Part shown: positions 6,610-55,370 of the stretch, in pieces
How positions within the stretch are numbered: position 1 is the stretch's first letter
Layout: each line of letters starts with the position of its first letter
DNA from: Candidatus Saccharimonadota bacterium
Lineage (GTDB): Bacteria; Patescibacteriota; Saccharimonadia; Saccharimonadales; Saccharimonadaceae
Direction: 5' to 3'
Assembly (NCBI GenBank): GCA_017511925.1
Contig: JAFWHS010000014.1
Location: forward strand, 1-64,000
DNA: 64,000 nucleotides
Program-made: the position numbers and the translations under genes
The notes under the pieces: generated by a model
What the model was told of the DNA's origin: nothing
Databases searched by the model: none
What the model saw: the letters and a program-made list of their open reading frames with translations, nothing else

Positions 6610-8307
6610 TTAATAATCAGACACGCATCGTATAGACCAGCCAAAAAACCTACTGTTGTTTGTTCCAGTAATAACAAGGTTACTACGAAAAACTAAGTAA
6701 TCAGCATTGGTGTCATTGTAAACAGTGCTGGACCAATAACTACCATTAAATCCCGCGAGATTTAGCTTGTTTGAACTTATGTTCCCAGACCTGGTCATAT
6801 AAACTGGCGCATTGAATAATCCCTGATCCGCTTTGTCGCTGTCGTGAATACTATTATATATATTATTTAATTTTGCAAAATCATTCTCGTCACCCGTGGC
6901 AGAAACTATCGGTAGCCTCCAGCCTCTAGGACAAATAGAATTTTTTGGGTTCTTGGTGGTGTCGTAATATGTAGATGTGGCAAAACTGCTTGAATTATTA
7001 GAGGCAATAGCAGCAGACCAATTGTAATAGTTCCCCACCTTACCATGACTACCATTAGAAGCAAAGGGAATTCTTTGAAAGTAATTTTGAGCAAAGGTAT
7101 TACTCGCTTTTAGATAGTTACAAGTCTGATCGTTGCTTGTGTTGCAAAGACTAGATTGAAAGTATGTGCCATTGGTATACCAGGAGGTAGATGCGTCGTT
7201 GCCTTCCGGGCTGAATGACCAGGGTGCAGTATTACTATTGTACCAACCATTAATTCCTCCACTAGTATTATCTATATCAGTAACGGTACGGCTGCTTGGA
7301 CTCCACACGATCGTATCTGGTCCATAAGGTTCCTGTATTAAGTAATAACCACCACTATCAGAATAAGCCACTGAATCCACACTATATTCATTTAGGTCTG
7401 TATTCATAGAAGTTATTTTTATGCTAGGATTTAGATCTAGATCCAAATTTTGTGTCATCCAAAGCGTAGAATCAGTACAACTGGCTTCCTTTTCTTGCCA
7501 GGTAGATCCGGCACCACTTGTACACATTCTGCGCACAGTATATGCTTTATTATCTCTAGAGTCATAAGCTGTAATTTCTTGTCCAACGGCAATGGTAGCC
7601 CCCCATTCGTTTACATCTTGCATATAATAATAATCCGGCCCCAAATTAGATGATGGGTGCACAAGTACATATTTCACTTGCCCCTCATAAACGCCAGCGG
7701 GTTGACCAAGGCTAATATAGGCAGCATATGTAGCAGTAAGATCTGTGCGTGGATCCGCGAAGTCTATATTAGGGTCTAGACTGGCTACTTTTGTATAGAC
7801 TTGCGGTATAATGCTGTAGTCGTCATATCCGTTCAATATATCGGGTTTATAGGTACCACTTATGATTGTGGCCGCTAATTTCATAGCCCAGCTTGAAGTG
7901 TCTCCTGAAGTAGTAATGCCAGTAGTTATATCATAAGTGCCACCTAGGGCATTACTGTGAAGTACCGTATTGGTTCCTGCAGCTACACCTACATCCCCAC
8001 CAGTATAGCCTATAGCGTATATTGCGTAACCATGATAATCATTACAAAGGGTTTGGATAGAAGTTAACCCTATATTTTCTTTATACTGCCCATTAATTAT
8101 AGTAGCTGTGTGCTCGTTGCCAGATTCTATGGTGGCGGTCATAGAACAAGTAGGTTTAACCGTGATGGTCGCGTCGGCTGTAGCAGCTTTAGCGTATGTT
8201 GTGGCCAATACTAAGTTGCTGTGGCACATACTGCTAAACAACATAATACTAACTGCACTAATACCAAGCAGTCCAAAAAATTTCTCTTTTTTCTTCATTG
8301 TGTGCAT
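6610..8307 (-). CDS. Secreted FISUMP-domain protein, paralog A
   Basis: This is a surface or secreted protein of about 565 aa. An N-terminal hydrophobic segment (KFFGLLGISAVSIMLFSS) works as signal or anchor. It is followed by a conserved ~200-aa region (CSMTATIESGNEHTAT, YAIYAIGYTGGD) and a C-terminal domain of the Fibrobacter succinogenes major paralogous type (LWMTQNLDLDL, CPRGWRLP, YWSSTVY, SIRCVSDY). That domain has a C-type-lectin-like fold in known members. Function is unknown; adhesion to a host cell is only an inference. The frame can begin at a GTG (8325), but AGAGGG lies just before ATG at 8307, and a further ATG (8298) matches the start of paralog C. It is preceded by the structured leader at 8351-8538. 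Confidence 0.85.
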   Translation of the reverse strand: MHTMKKKEKFFGLLGISAVSIMLFSSMCHSNLVLATTYAKAATADATITVKPTCSMTATIESGNEHTATIINGQYKENIGLTSIQTLCNDYHGYAIYAIGYTGGDVGVAAGTNTVLHSNALGGTYDITTGITTSGDTSSWAMKLAATIISGTYKPDILNGYDDYSIIPQVYTKVASLDPNIDFADPRTDLTATYAAYISLGQPAGVYEGQVKYVLVHPSSNLGPDYYYMQDVNEWGATIAVGQEITAYDSRDNKAYTVRRMCTSGAGSTWQEKEASCTDSTLWMTQNLDLDLNPSIKITSMNTDLNEYSVDSVAYSDSGGYYLIQEPYGPDTIVWSPSSRTVTDIDNTSGGINGWYNSNTAPWSFSPEGNDASTSWYTNGTYFQSSLCNTSNDQTCNYLKASNTFAQNYFQRIPFASNGSHGKVGNYYNWSAAIASNNSSSFATSTYYDTTKNPKNSICPRGWRLPIVSATGDENDFAKLNNIYNSIHDSDKADQGLFNAPVYMTRSGNISSNKLNLAGFNGSYWSSTVYNDTNADYLVFRSNLVITGTNNSRFFGWSIRCVSDY

Positions 8308-8350
8308 GATCCCTCTTTGCCTCACTTTAATTGTTGTTTTACTATTACGC

Positions 8351-8538
8351 CCCCTTGCGGTGCCACTTATTTTATTTATAGACCATGCGCAAAAAATGGC
8401 ACCGCAAGGGGTGCAACAATCTAATAACCTACATCAGAGTTCTGATCCAGTTAATGATAACCTTACGGTGCCATTGTTTAACTGGATAAAACTCCAATAT
8501 AAAAATTCTGATGTTTACGTTATTAAATTGTTGCACCC
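8351..8538 (-). ncRNA. Structured 5' leader of FISUMP paralog A (copy A)
   Basis: In transcript order there is first a long hairpin: P1 8519-8538 with 8409-8428, 20 nt with one G-U; P2 8507-8514 with 8431-8438; and P3 8478-8487 with 8445-8454. Its apical loop holds ATGGCACCGTAAGG (8461-8474). Next comes linker K, CCCCTTGCGGTGCCA (8397-8411), directly followed by six U. Then comes arm H, TGGCACCGCAAGGGG (8351-8365), a perfect 15-bp partner of K. K can instead pair with the apical loop through 14 bp with one U-G. The K-H loop holds GCAUGGUC, complementary to the GGAUCAUGC at the gene start. No known RNA family is recognised. Confidence 0.7.
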
Positions 8539-8540
8539 TC

Positions 8541-8569
8541 ATTATATCACAGGTGCTATTTTTGTGCAA
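8541..8569 (-). promoter_or_regulatory. Promoter of paralog A leader
   Basis: On the minus strand the -35 TTGCAC (8564-8569) and -10 TATAAT (8541-8546) are 17 bp apart. Transcription would start 6-7 nt later, at the base of leader helix P1. A short GTTTA/TAAAC hairpin with a T-run ends just upstream, after the LOG gene. Confidence 0.75.
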
Positions 8570-22877: not shown

Positions 22878-24581
22878 TTAATAATCCGAGACGCAGCGCA
22901 CTGATAATAACCTACCCTTATCGCCACCACCTCCATATATGACATTATCACTACGAAAATACAGGTTATAAGCATTTGCCATATCATAAACGGTGCTAGA
23001 CCAATAAAAACCACTATAGCCAGAATAATAAAGGACGGCATCGCGCACAAAACCAGACCGGACCATATAAATAGGACTATTGATAAGTCCGGTACCGCTG
23101 CTGGTGCTGCCATTGCTGTTGTAGACTCCAGCTAATCTACCAAAATCAGCATAACCCCTCTGCGAAGATATCCTTGGCAATCTCCAACCTTTAGGGCAAA
23201 TAGAGTTTTGCGGATTATTCCTAACATCATTGTATGTGGACGACGTAAAGCCAAAGCCGGCGTCGTTAGAGGCAATAGCAGCACCCCAGTCATAATAGTT
23301 ACCTATCTTACCGTGATTACCATTGCCAGTGAATGGTGTATGGCTAAAGTAGATTGGAGCTACCGTGTTGTTGTTGTTGAGATAGTTACAGGTTCGGGTA
23401 TCAGAACTTACATAGCACAAATTAGAGTTATATACTTCACCAGTAGTATACCATGGATTATTCGGGTCGTCAGCGTCTGGGTCTGCAGATGCGACATTGC
23501 TATACGTCCAATTATAAAAAGCACCAGTGGACGAGTTGACGTTTGCGTTAGTTGAAGAGATTGGCACCCAGCTGATCATGCCTGATGGATCCTTGCTGTA
23601 ACCATTTTTGTAAGCTTTGTCATCCACCACATTCAGATCTGTATCTTCTGAGGTTAGCCCCATATTCTTATTCAAGTCCAAATCTAGGTTCTGCGTCATC
23701 CAAAGCATAGAATTTGTCACAGCACAATTAGCTTCCTTCTCTTGCCAGGTAGAACCATTCCCGTCCATACACATCCTCCTTACTGTATAGGACTTATTGT
23801 CACGAATGTCATAAGCGGTGACCTCCTGGCCTATAGCAATGGTTTGGCCCCATTCATCTACAGTTTGCATATAGTATGGGAAGGTATCAATATTGCTTGG
23901 GTTTACTAACACATATTTAACCGCCCCTCCATAAGTACCAGCATCTTGGGTAGGGCTAATGTATGCAGCATAAGTGGTGGTAAGTTTTGATCCTTGTCTA
24001 GTACTGGCTGGGTTATCTAGGTCTGTATTAGTATTAAAGCTAGCTACCTTAGTATAGCTTTGTGGTACTATATGATAATCACTGAATGACCCGCTGTCAT
24101 CACTTAGAATATCTGGTTTATATGTACCATCTACACTTGTTAGTTTCATAGCCCAGTTAGATATGTCTCCTGAAGTAGCAATGCCTGTTACTATATCATA
24201 GGTAGATCCTAGTGCTGCACTATGAAGTACTGTATTAGTTCCTGCAGCTACTCCTGCGTCTCCACCAGTATAGCCTATAGCATAGATTGCATAGCCATTA
24301 GGATCATTGCAGAAGGTTTGAATAGTAGTTAGTCCTATATCTTCCTTATACTGTCCATTGATCATAGTAGCTGTATGTTCATTACCAGAATCTATAGTAG
24401 CAGTCATAGAACAGGTGGATCTAACTCTTATTGCGGCGTTAGTGGAAGTGGTTTTAGTTTGAGTGGTAGCTGATACATTATTAATATAGCTATTAGTATA
24501 TATACTACCAAATGATATGATACTGACTATACTAATACCAAGCAGCCCAAAAAATTTCTCTTTTTTCTTCATTGTGTGCAT
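22878..24581 (-). CDS. Secreted FISUMP-domain protein, paralog B
   Basis: About 567 aa, close to paralog A in the signal segment (MHTMKKKEKFFGLLGIS) and in the conserved N-terminal region (CSMTATIDSGNEHTAT). The C-terminal domain (LWMTQNLDLDL, CPKGWRLP, YWSSTVYD, SVRCVSDY) has the same frame but different loops. Start alternatives mirror paralog A: GTG 24599, ATG 24581 (AGAGGG just upstream, chosen) and ATG 24572. It has its own leader, promoter and terminator. Loops near the end (after YWSST) are the most divergent part, as expected for a ligand face. Confidence 0.85.
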   Translation of the reverse strand: MHTMKKKEKFFGLLGISIVSIISFGSIYTNSYINNVSATTQTKTTSTNAAIRVRSTCSMTATIDSGNEHTATMINGQYKEDIGLTTIQTFCNDPNGYAIYAIGYTGGDAGVAAGTNTVLHSAALGSTYDIVTGIATSGDISNWAMKLTSVDGTYKPDILSDDSGSFSDYHIVPQSYTKVASFNTNTDLDNPASTRQGSKLTTTYAAYISPTQDAGTYGGAVKYVLVNPSNIDTFPYYMQTVDEWGQTIAIGQEVTAYDIRDNKSYTVRRMCMDGNGSTWQEKEANCAVTNSMLWMTQNLDLDLNKNMGLTSEDTDLNVVDDKAYKNGYSKDPSGMISWVPISSTNANVNSSTGAFYNWTYSNVASADPDADDPNNPWYTTGEVYNSNLCYVSSDTRTCNYLNNNNTVAPIYFSHTPFTGNGNHGKIGNYYDWGAAIASNDAGFGFTSSTYNDVRNNPQNSICPKGWRLPRISSQRGYADFGRLAGVYNSNGSTSSGTGLINSPIYMVRSGFVRDAVLYYSGYSGFYWSSTVYDMANAYNLYFRSDNVIYGGGGDKGRLLSVRCVSDY

Positions 24582-24624
24582 GATCCCTCTTTGCCTCACT
24601 TTAATTGTTGTTTTACTATTACGC

Positions 24625-24813
24625 CCCCTTGCGGTGCCACTTATTTTATTTATAGATCATGCGCAAAAATGGCACCGCAAGGGGTGCAATAGTTAAAAGC
24701 TCGTCCAGCATGTAGCGTTCGAACCCAAAACAGCCTTACGGTGCCATTGACGGACTCAAACGCTACACGATAAAAATACCATGCTGTTTATAACTAACTT
24801 TTAACTATTGCAC
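24625..24813 (-). ncRNA. Structured 5' leader of FISUMP paralog B (copy B)
   Basis: Same architecture as copy A. P1 pairs 24798-24813 with 24684-24699 (16 bp perfect). P2 pairs 24780-24786 with 24706-24712 (7 bp). P3 pairs 24752-24766 with 24712-24726 (15 bp with three G-U pairs). The loop carries ATGGCACCGTAAGG (24734-24747), linker K is 24670-24684 followed by five U, and arm H is 24625-24639 (15 bp with K). P2 and P3 sequences share nothing obvious with copy A or C, and P1 shares only its base, while loop, K, H and the start region are nearly identical. The K-H loop GCAUGAUC complements the GGAUCAUGC at the start codon. Confidence 0.72.
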
Positions 24814-24817
24814 TTTG

Positions 24818-24847
24818 ATTATAGCATAACTATAATTTTTATGTCAA
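24818..24847 (-). promoter_or_regulatory. Promoter of paralog B leader
   Basis: The -35 TTGACA (24842-24847) and -10 TATAAT (24818-24823) are 18 bp apart. The -10 is extended (TGCTATAAT). The -35 merges with the T-run of the upstream terminator, as in copy C. Confidence 0.85.
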
Positions 24848-24873
24848 AAAGGTGTTGTATTTTTTACAACACC
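24846..24873 (-). terminator. Terminator between trmD and the paralog B promoter
   Basis: Minus-strand GGTGTTGTA/TACAACACC with an A5 loop and T5 run. A near-identical hairpin precedes copy C, so it belongs to the duplicated unit. Confidence 0.85.
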
Positions 24874-24897
24874 TTTCTCTATTTTATATCTTATAAT

Positions 24898-52711: not shown

Positions 52712-54409
52712 TTAATATTCAGATACGCAGCGCACTGACCTCCCATAGATCCTATTATTGACAAGAGCGGGAGAAACGAGATTACCGCGGAAGAGAAAGT
52801 AGAACGCGTCGTAAGCAGTGCTTACTGTACTAGACCAGTAGTAGCCGCTGTATCCTGCTTCATTAAGGGCACCATTATTGATGGTGCCGGACCATACCAT
52901 ATAAACGGGGCTCCTTACAAAGTCGTGGCCATTGGATGCAGAATTACCATTATATACATCGTTAAGCTGGGCAAACTCGCTCTTAATAGCTATACTAGAT
53001 ATGGTGGGAAGTCTCCATCCTCTAGGGCAAATAGAGTTCTGTGGATTATTAGCTACGTTATTATATGTAGAAGAAGTAAGACTGCTAGAATTATTAGAAG
53101 CTATGGCTGCGGACCAGTTGTAGTAGTTACCTACCTTACCATGACTGCCGTTGGTTGTAAATGGGGCTCTTTGGAAGAGTTTATGAGCTGTAGCATTATT
53201 GGCGACTAGGTAATTACAGGCTTGGTTATTATTGTATAGACATTTGTTATCGTAGGTATTCGGATCACCAGTGGCATACCATGTACTATCTGGACTCCCG
53301 GCATCTGGATCAGCGGAGTAAGCGACGTTGTTATTATTTGTCCAACCATTAAATCTACCATCGTAAGCGTCAATACTGGTAATAGTTGTTGTGGCGGGCG
53401 TCCAGTGGATTACGCCATTATCATCAATGGAATAGCCATTAGTATATGCTCTGGAAGTTATGTCATTAAGGTCCGTGTTCACAGAATTAAGCGAAGTGGA
53501 AGAACTTAGGTCTAGATCTAAATTTTGCGTCATCCAAAGCATGGAACTGGTACAGTTAGCTTCCTTTTGTTGCCAGGCATTGCCTGTACCTTCCATGCAC
53601 ATTCTTCTTACACTGTAAGACTTTCCGTCTCTAAGATCATCCGCGGTGACTTCCTCGCCTATGGCAATGGTTGGCCCCCATTCATCTACGTTTTGCATAT
53701 TGAAGTTTGGACTTAGACTATTGCTAGGATGCACTAGTACATACTTTACTTGTCCCTCATAAGTTCCTGCTGGCTGAGTAGAACTAATGTATGTGGCATA
53801 GGTAGTAGTTAAGGATGATCCTATAGTAGCATCAGTGTTAGTATTAAATTTGGCTACTTTAGTATAGTTTTGTGGTACTATATGATAATCACTATAAGGT
53901 CCGTCATCATCACTTAGGATAGTTGGTTCATAAGTACCTGGTACACTAGATACTTTCATGGCCCAGTTAGATATGTCTCCTGATGTGGCAATACCAGTGA
54001 CTATATCATAGTTAGATCCTAGTGCATTACTATGCAGGACTGTATTGGTCCCTTCTGCTACTCCTTCATCTCCACCAGTATAGCCTATAGCATAGATAGC
54101 ATAGCCATTAGGATCATTGCAGAAGGTTTGAATAGTAGTCTTACCAATATCTGATTGGTATTGTCCACCTATTAGTGTAGCACTATGTTCTTCTCCTGGT
54201 TGTATATTAGCCGTCATAGAACAGAAGTTACTGACTCTAACGGAAGCGGTAGCAGTAGTAGTTTGAGTGAGAGCTGATGTAGAACCATTAACGCTTATTC
54301 CTGGGAAGATAGGTATATTGCATGATAATAACATACCAGCTAATACTGTAATACCTACAATACTCATAGTAATATAGGTTAGTGGTTGATAACTATGCTT
54401 GATCTTCAT
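52712..54409 (-). CDS. Secreted FISUMP-domain protein, paralog C
   Basis: This 565-aa protein has the same layout as paralogs A and B: signal segment (~12-32), conserved region with CSMTANIQPGEEHSATLIGG, and a C-terminal FISUMP domain (LWMTQNLDLDL, CPRGWRLP, YWSSTVS, SVRCVSEY). It is more diverged at the N-terminus (MKIKHSYQPLT). The start has GTGAGG 9 nt upstream. Its loops after YWSST differ from both other copies. Leader copy C precedes it. Confidence 0.87.
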   Translation of the reverse strand: MKIKHSYQPLTYITMSIVGITVLAGMLLSCNIPIFPGISVNGSTSALTQTTTATASVRVSNFCSMTANIQPGEEHSATLIGGQYQSDIGKTTIQTFCNDPNGYAIYAIGYTGGDEGVAEGTNTVLHSNALGSNYDIVTGIATSGDISNWAMKVSSVPGTYEPTILSDDDGPYSDYHIVPQNYTKVAKFNTNTDATIGSSLTTTYATYISSTQPAGTYEGQVKYVLVHPSNSLSPNFNMQNVDEWGPTIAIGEEVTADDLRDGKSYSVRRMCMEGTGNAWQQKEANCTSSMLWMTQNLDLDLSSSTSLNSVNTDLNDITSRAYTNGYSIDDNGVIHWTPATTTITSIDAYDGRFNGWTNNNNVAYSADPDAGSPDSTWYATGDPNTYDNKCLYNNNQACNYLVANNATAHKLFQRAPFTTNGSHGKVGNYYNWSAAIASNNSSSLTSSTYNNVANNPQNSICPRGWRLPTISSIAIKSEFAQLNDVYNGNSASNGHDFVRSPVYMVWSGTINNGALNEAGYSGYYWSSTVSTAYDAFYFLFRGNLVSPALVNNRIYGRSVRCVSEY

Positions 54410-54455: not shown

Positions 54456-54662
54456 CCCCTTGCGGTGCCACCATTATAGGATCATGCACAAGTTATAAAA
54501 ATGGCACCGCAAGGGGTGCAACAGCTTAATGCTTTAACTCCAATCTAGAACCAAAGTATTTAGGCTACCTTACGATGCCATTGCTTTACTTTGATTAACT
54601 AGAAAATAAATTACATATAAAATATATTGGAGTATATTTTATAAAACATTAAACTGTTGCAC
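54456..54662 (-). ncRNA. Structured 5' leader of FISUMP paralog C (copy C)
   Basis: P1 pairs 54647-54662 with 54516-54531 (16 bp, one U-G). P2 pairs 54626-54633 with 54537-54544 (8 bp). P3 pairs 54587-54594 with 54551-54558 (8 bp, one U-G) plus CTAG/CTAG. The loop holds ATGGCATCGTAAGG (54568-54581). Linker K (54502-54516) is followed by five U, and arm H is 54456-54470. The C-to-T change in the loop relative to copies A and B turns a G-C pair with K into G-U, keeping the alternative helix. The K-H loop retains GTGCATGATCC although the start region it would match in A and B has changed. Confidence 0.72.
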
Positions 54663-54666
54663 TACA

Positions 54667-54696
54667 ATTATAGCATAACCACAGTGCTTGTGTCAA
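54667..54696 (-). promoter_or_regulatory. Promoter of paralog C leader
   Basis: TTGACA (54691-54696), 18 bp, extended -10 TGCTATAAT (TATAAT 54667-54672). Nearly the same module as in copy B. Confidence 0.85.
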
Positions 54697-54720
54697 AAAA
54701 GTGTTGTATTTTTTACAACA
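54695..54720 (-). terminator. Terminator between ung and the paralog C promoter
   Basis: Minus-strand TGTTGTA/TACAACA with A5 loop and T6; its T-run leads into the -35. The ung stop is 2 bp away. Confidence 0.82.
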
Positions 54721-54722
54721 AA

Positions 54723-55370
54723 TTACCAAATAATTTCTTCCAAACCACAATCCCTCAAAAACTCATTGCATCTTGAAAAATGATGATTCCCAAAAAATCC
54801 CGCATGTGCTGACAAAGGCGATGGATGCGGCGACTCTAATACTAAGTGCCGAGAAGCATCAATTAAGGCTTTCTTATTCCTCGCATCTCTTCCCCACAGA
54901 ATAAACACAAGATGTGGGCGCGATTCATTTAGGTATTTTATCACTTCTGTCGTAAAAATTTCCCAACCCTTGCCGCGATGCGACCCAGCCCTATGTGCCT
55001 CCACTGTCAGCACAGTGTTCAACAACAATACTCCTTGCTTCTGCCAATTTCTCAGGCTTCCAGTTCGGTTTGCGTGGCTCCCGATATCTGCATCTATTTC
55101 TTTATATATATTAATCAGAGATGGCGGAATTGGTTGCGAGCTTGGCACCGAAAACGCCAAACCCTCCGCTGCGCCCGGCGTATGATACGGATCCTGGCCA
55201 AGTATCACGACCTTCACATCGTTCAAATCTGTAGCAAAAGCCGAAAACACCAATGATTTTTTAGGAAAGATCACTTTATGTTCGTATTCATCATGCAAAA
55301 ACTCCGCCAATTCTTTAAAGTATGGCTTTCCGAATTCGCTATTTAAAAACGGCCTCCAACTCTCATGCAT
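54723..55370 (-). CDS. ung: Uracil-DNA glycosylase, family 1
   Basis: This 215-aa enzyme removes uracil from DNA. It has the catalytic motif VVILGQDPYHTPGAAEGLAFS with the water-activating Asp, the Pro/Ser loop IPPSLINIYKEI, and the C-terminal HPSPLSAHAGFFG with the catalytic His. Confidence 0.96.
   Translation of the reverse strand: MHESWRPFLNSEFGKPYFKELAEFLHDEYEHKVIFPKKSLVFSAFATDLNDVKVVILGQDPYHTPGAAEGLAFSVPSSQPIPPSLINIYKEIDADIGSHANRTGSLRNWQKQGVLLLNTVLTVEAHRAGSHRGKGWEIFTTEVIKYLNESRPHLVFILWGRDARNKKALIDASRHLVLESPHPSPLSAHAGFFGNHHFSRCNEFLRDCGLEEIIW

Follow-up and report, generated by a model that had tools for sequence, protein, structure and literature searches.

A candidate family of structured leader RNAs upstream of surface-protein and accessory genes in Saccharibacteria

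The 64,000-nucleotide stretch of DNA analysed here, referred to as the window, comes from a Saccharimonadota genome of 832,473 bases and carries three genes for FISUMP-like secreted proteins, each preceded by one copy of a long structured element. The initial annotation had described copies A, B and C of this element with the order promoter, three-helix hairpin (P1, P2 and P3), loop, strand K with a U-run, arm H and gene start, and all three were found at the places given and in this order, on the minus strand (Table 1). Its total of three was too low: the genome holds 11 copies of one type and one copy of a second type, three being the share of the window. The GTG starts listed for the three genes also lie too far upstream, and SD sequences with ATG codons place the starts at 8307, 24581 and 54409.

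Table 1. Positions of the elements and their downstream genes in the window, with the second-type copy of the genome
Feature	Position	Strand	Remark
Copy A -10 box TATAAT	8541..8546	-	3-4 nt before P1
Copy A P1 5' arm	8519..8537	-	
Copy A apical loop strand L (ATGGCACCGTAAGG)	8461..8474	-	
Copy A P1 3' arm	8410..8428	-	final GCACC doubles as 5' strand of hairpin T
Copy A hub strand K (CCTTGCGGTGCCAT)	8396..8409	-	
Copy A terminator-like hairpin T (GCACC-CCTTGC-GGTGC)	8399..8414	-	T-run just after
Copy A U-run	8391..8396	-	
Copy A strand M (GCGCATGGTC)	8381..8390	-	complement of start region
Copy A strand H (GTGGCACCGCAAGG)	8353..8366	-	complement of K
Copy A M' (GATCATGCAC)	8302..8311	-	over ATG 8307-8305, adjoins SD
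Copy A downstream gene, FISUMP-like secreted protein	6610..8307	-	
Copy B -10 box TATAAT	24818..24823	-	
Copy B P1-P2-P3 hairpin	24684..24813	-	
Copy B L	24734..24747	-	
Copy B K	24669..24682	-	
Copy B U-run	24665..24669	-	
Copy B M (GCGCATGATC)	24655..24664	-	
Copy B H	24627..24640	-	
Copy B M' (GATCATGCAC)	24576..24585	-	over ATG at 24581
Copy B downstream gene, FISUMP-like secreted protein	22878..24581	-	
Copy C -10 box TATAAT	54667..54672	-	
Copy C P1-P2-P3 hairpin	54515..54662	-	
Copy C L (ATGGCATCGTAAGG)	54568..54581	-	
Copy C K	54501..54514	-	
Copy C U-run	54497..54501	-	
Copy C H	54458..54471	-	
Copy C downstream gene, FISUMP-like secreted protein	52712..54409	-	
Second-type copy	C4:47032-47156		in front of TM2-like membrane protein gene

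The FISUMP matches of the three window proteins (20.4, 25.2 and 18.5 bits) stay below the Pfam cut-off of 33.9, which many relatives exceed. Among the PF09603 matches of the genome, two are without a leader and two others run off contig ends. The -35 region of the leader promoter in copies B and C coincides in part with a terminator that lies upstream (TGTTGTAAAAAATACAACA followed by a T-run; 24835-24875 and 54690-54725). The segment from K to H contains short upstream ORFs (e.g. ATG ATC TAT AAA TAA), which were recognized by eye and vary between subgroups of copies.

All three window copies fold far better than their dinucleotide shuffles, with z-scores of -8.35 (A), -8.15 (B) and -6.80 (C). 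The hairpin arms are unrelated between copies, as the initial annotation had stated (global identity 0.48-0.65). Within each of two subgroups of copies the block from K to the gene start is 0.95-0.99 identical, and the arms stay at background identity. Such near-identical blocks are found in the window at 24669-24585 and 8396-8308, at L010 and L013, and also at L009, L011 and L012; from this pattern we infer gene conversion that would halt at the unrelated arms.

The position of the promoter was followed over 170 copies. A TATAAT box with at most one mismatch lies no more than 20 nt upstream of P1 in 168 of them, and its distance to P1 is most often 4-7 nt; a control stretch has such a box in 40 of the 170. 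The -10 boxes adjoin P1 on the upstream side and are not found downstream of the hairpin, a position which implies that P1 very probably starts no more than a few bases from the predicted 5' end of the mRNA.

The K motif is present in 59 of 147 genomes of the genus, with up to about 25 copies per genome. Whole-genome loci and a scan of named genomes together delivered 183 distinct copies from the genus, for which the register of P1 was set from Watson-Crick pairs only. The covariation proposed from three copies extends to many further ones: P1 pairs at 17.0 of 18 positions with its own arms and at 7.8 of 18 with arms swapped between copies. P3 consists of 10 bp and is separated from the loop strand by about 4 nt on the 5' side and 7 nt on the 3' side. 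All ten positions are paired in 108 of 170 copies, but in only 1 of 170 after each 5' side has been combined with the 3' side of a different copy. The registers of P1 and P3 were picked by pairing, which biases toward structure, and the swapped-arm controls answer this bias. In a 41-sequence alignment, 95.6% of the cells in P1, P3 and the loop-K helix are paired and 28 pairs are altered on both sides, with a covariation score of 0.698 compared to 0.198 for shuffled alignments and at most 0.127 with the partner slid.

The non-Watson-Crick pairs of P1 in the 183 copies comprise 266 G.U and 32 A.C on the sense strand. This ratio is reversed on the other strand, and it is therefore the mRNA-sense strand that is under selection, so that the earlier remark on sense-strand G-U pairs holds at scale. 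The wobbles of P1 in the genus copies are also one-sided (in copy A, P1 spans 8519-8537/8410-8428): the arrangement with U on the 5' arm and G on the 3' arm occurs 234 times, the opposite one 21 times. At one position of P1, U.G is the commonest pair (21 of 41 sequences), and in P3 the asymmetry is weak (109 vs 74). Our guesses are C-to-T change in the strand that would be open at the promoter, or a recognition feature. In some lineages (L019, L029, L172, L190, L193) a second long hairpin lies within the first 30 codons, e.g. TTTCGGTGCCA...TGGCACCGAA; it yields peptide motifs such as GSILLPLAPKW.

The shuffle z-scores, the covariation and the position of the -10 box agree with the structured leader RNA that the initial annotation had placed upstream of the genes. 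A promoter lies just upstream, the structure follows, then an SD sequence and a gene start, and compensatory changes conserve the pairing of the sense-strand RNA. With high confidence the element can be classified as a structured cis-regulatory leader RNA.

A DNA-level element (a recombination, transposition or attC-like site, or a mobile-hairpin repeat) is most improbable. It would account for the multiple copies, for the 95-99% identity of the K-to-start blocks within subgroups and for the frequent contig ends at the element, but not for the one-strand excess of G.U over A.C, nor for a promoter that almost always precedes and a gene that usually follows; in addition, the viral contigs are without any hit and the arms of copy A have no other match in the genome. 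A DNA palindrome or mobile hairpin was rejected on the strand bias of the wobbles and the unique arms of copy A. Selection for folding of a DNA strand, as in an integron attC or other single-stranded DNA recombination site, does not agree with the excess of G.U pairs on the mRNA-sense strand. A phage origin was considered as well; an exact match was absent from the viral contigs searched.

It is likewise improbable that the element is a separate small RNA acting in trans, located upstream of genes only by position and ended by the terminator-like hairpin T described below. The element does possess its own promoter and a terminator-like end, and in a few cases (L018, L025) the next gene is distant. 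Against this, most copies have an SD sequence and a start codon some 30-110 nt further on, and the sequence after the U-run is complementary to the start region.

K adjoins the 3' end of P1 and is followed by the U-run. It has three possible partners: the base of P1, with which it forms hairpin T; the apical loop strand L, with which it forms a pseudoknot; and the downstream strand H. The initial annotation had called the loop invariant and complementary to K. The complementarity stands, with 94.9% of the cells of the L-K helix paired in this genus; the loop is not invariant, and loop-K is itself a covarying helix. Its versions differ across the other genera yet stay complementary, as in the lineage-specific L/K pairs GGGGCATCGCC/GGCGGTGTCCC and GGGCGACTCGC/GCGGGTCGTCC. 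Lineages in this set were required to have 13 of 14 pairs, so their level of pairing is partly given by construction, the differences in sequence not. For arm H, complementarity to K was confirmed in the window copies, but H is not universal and several lineages are without it. The K-H pairing has a mean z of -1.43 against dinucleotide shuffles (70 copies, p about 3e-12), and the K-H duplex of copy A reaches -36 kcal/mol.

Two features had been overlooked in the earlier reading. The first is hairpin T, made up of K, the base of P1 and the U-run, which in copy A reads GCACC-CCTTGC-GGTGC-CA-TTTTTT. Of the copies from other genera, 48 of 55 have a T stem of at least 5 bp with a loop of 3-8 nt just before the U-run, as have 106 of 132 from this genus, leaving 7 and 26 copies, respectively, without it. 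Its versions covary (GACACC/GGTGTC, GACAACC/GGTTGTC, GACGACC/GGTCGTC). Between T and the P1 base there is near balance in the other genera (0.37 and 0.39), and in this genus P1 prevails (0.20 and 0.65). Here T is short (5 bp, with a 2-nt gap to U5), and it scores no better than with a permuted K because both strands are conserved. The U-run has 5 or 6 residues in most copies and is broken in some (UUUCU, UAUUUU). In outline the element thus resembles a transcription attenuator, with a short GC-rich stem that adjoins the U-run and competes with a second fold. The L-K helix also adjoins the U-run, so it might itself be the terminator stem.

The second feature is a strand after the U-run that is complementary to the ribosome-binding region. 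Its pairing energy in this genus is -13.1 kcal/mol compared to -10.7 for permuted sequences (62 clusters), and in 22 copies, nearly all from other genera, -10.6 compared to -8.6, in both sets below every permutation. By sequence pairing this provides the RBS-sequestering strand typical of a translational switch; in copies A and B, GCGCATGRTC pairs with GATCATGCAC, covering the start codon. Strand M, located after the U-run, overlaps H in many lineages. In 27 of 57 copies from other genera one and the same 10-nt stretch can pair with K as well as with the RBS at a strength of no less than 6 kcal/mol (mean z 0.90, p = 7e-5), a layout that would suit competition between K and the ribosome site for a single strand. 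When K is freed in a simple folding calculation, the opening of the ribosome site changes by -0.02 in the other genera, like with a shuffled K, and by +0.05 in this genus, where a shuffled K gives -0.04.

Three simpler readings were weighed against these pairings. In an attenuator only, P1 together with the L-K pseudoknot would act as antiterminator and the hairpin of K with the P1 base, followed by the U-run, as terminator, the downstream pairings being incidental. The geometry and covariation of T, its near balance with the P1 base in other genera and the prevailing U-run length agree with this, but in two sets the post-U-run strand pairs with the ribosome site better than permuted controls do, part of this genus has a weak T stem or none, and some U-runs are broken; we regard this reading as unlikely. 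We are equally doubtful of a translational switch only, in which K and L decide if H or M shuts the RBS and the U-run is just a spacer, paired to the A-rich sequence around the start. Such pairing of the U-run with the start region was seen in several copies and, like the RBS pairing, the K-H pairing and the dual-pairing stretch, speaks for it; the recurrence of a terminator shape exactly at the U-run would go unexplained, and freeing K changes accessibility little. The third reading takes the element as an mRNA stabilizer, a 5'-terminal stem against 5'-end-dependent decay without any switching. P1 is indeed a long, nearly perfect stem of free sequence a few nucleotides from the predicted start in nearly all copies. 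This reading has little probability in our view, leaving unexplained the covarying L-K helix, the constant U-run, the K-H pairing and the RBS pairing.

We lean slightly towards a cis-acting conformational switch built around hub strand K, as suggested by the arrangement of complementary strands. The transcript would begin at the foot of P1, which would lock the 5' end of the mRNA, and P1, P2 and P3 would present L; the L-K pseudoknot would leave P1 closed. In the OFF state hairpin T may form and terminate transcription, or, alternatively, L may hold K while the downstream strand closes the ribosome site. In the ON state P1 would stay closed, with K taking H or trapping M in its loop. A ligand, protein or RNA binding to the P1-P3/L domain would shift the balance. 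The small or absent opening of the ribosome site on freeing K, and the position of L-K next to the U-run, speak against a simple version of this switch.

The taxonomic range was surveyed with two covariance models, R1 built from the copies of this genus and R2 from the relatives that R1 found. Of the 61 genera sampled from the family, 17 had relatives by R1, a number that rose to 33 with R2; R1 also detected relatives in other families of the order, to which R2 added further ones. Scattered matches occur elsewhere in the class and phylum, and the range of the element possibly reaches beyond the order Saccharimonadales. Named records with the element are mostly Candidatus Saccharibacteria from gut and rumen. 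The form in other genera has the P1 base TGTCTTA/TAAGACA with K = CCTTGCGGTGTCGTTTTT and L = AAACGGCACCGCATAAGC.

The leader was also observed on contigs labelled Oscillospiraceae or Clostridia, originating from the 'Lapin' rabbit MAGs (L168, L172, L180, L190, L193). A spread into Clostridia was rejected, as those Lapin contigs with enough sequence carry the FISUMP genes of this group; the five contigs are probably misbinned Saccharibacteria.

The association with FISUMP genes proposed by the initial annotation is valid for this genus, where the sampled products are mostly FISUMP proteins and 137 of 148 downstream products contain a hydrophobic stretch near the N terminus. It does not extend to the Saccharibacteria-wide element, which precedes other gene types elsewhere. 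Products in other genera include two T4SS pilins, two weak OmpA matches, a radical SAM protein, a DUF4352 protein, NHL repeats and TM2-like small membrane proteins, the latter recognized by eye. At least five restriction-modification genes follow the leader in other genera (L309, L317, L350, L357, L370), comprising an EcoRI-type methylase, two C5 methylases, an N6/N4 methylase and a Tsp45I-type restriction enzyme; this link was unexpected. No common metabolic pathway was seen among the sampled products, and the common theme, judged from the predicted products, is one of surface and accessory functions. Tentatively, and with less than even confidence, we propose a new class of RNA that would sense a signal throughout the Saccharibacteria: its hub strand would pick the terminator, the pseudoknot with the 5'-terminal hairpin, or a downstream strand that opens or shuts the ribosome site, and the class would jointly control host-contact surface proteins, secretion pilins and restriction-modification genes.

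On the element no Rfam 15 covariance model scored over its gathering threshold, and relaxed scans gave only sub-threshold matches there, in agreement with the initial annotation, which had recognized no known riboswitch or leader class. The element is not described in the literature searched, which covered only a minority of subscription papers. It looks like an undescribed family of folded RNA that would provide a common on/off control for its Saccharibacteria genes. Gene regulation in Patescibacteria, organisms with few genes, is almost unexplored, and from sequence alone a candidate Saccharibacteria-wide regulon of surface proteins, secretion pilins, restriction enzymes and methylases emerges, whose surface proteins may contact the host. 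The many paralogous leaders per genome, with unrelated but nearly perfectly paired arms, also represent an unusually clean natural experiment in RNA evolution.

With the T-box leader (RF00230) the element shares a complementary strand followed by U's. In this genome H contains GUGGCACCGC, which resembles the T-box core, and L resembles it likewise. The bases after UGG vary in L, unlike in the T-box, and a T-box riboswitch was rejected: there was no RF00230 match, a Stem I or specifier loop was not recognized, and key bases vary. The LOOT RNA (RF03000) is, like the element, a structured RNA of Saccharibacteria, but its structure and place differ and the element itself has no LOOT match. One LOOT RNA (74 bits) was observed at L336:2744-2861, about 1.1 kb from a copy of the element and upstream of another membrane-protein gene. 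Attenuator leaders of the trp type work by mutually exclusive strands, with pairings 1:2 and 3:4 opposed to 2:3. With attenuator riboswitches and leaders the element has in common a strand shared by competing helices, a terminator shape with a U-run and an RBS-sequestering strand; it differs from attenuator leaders in that K has three look-alike partners, that K, in one of these pairings, forms a pseudoknot with the loop at the apex of the 5'-terminal hairpin, and that the arms are free in sequence.
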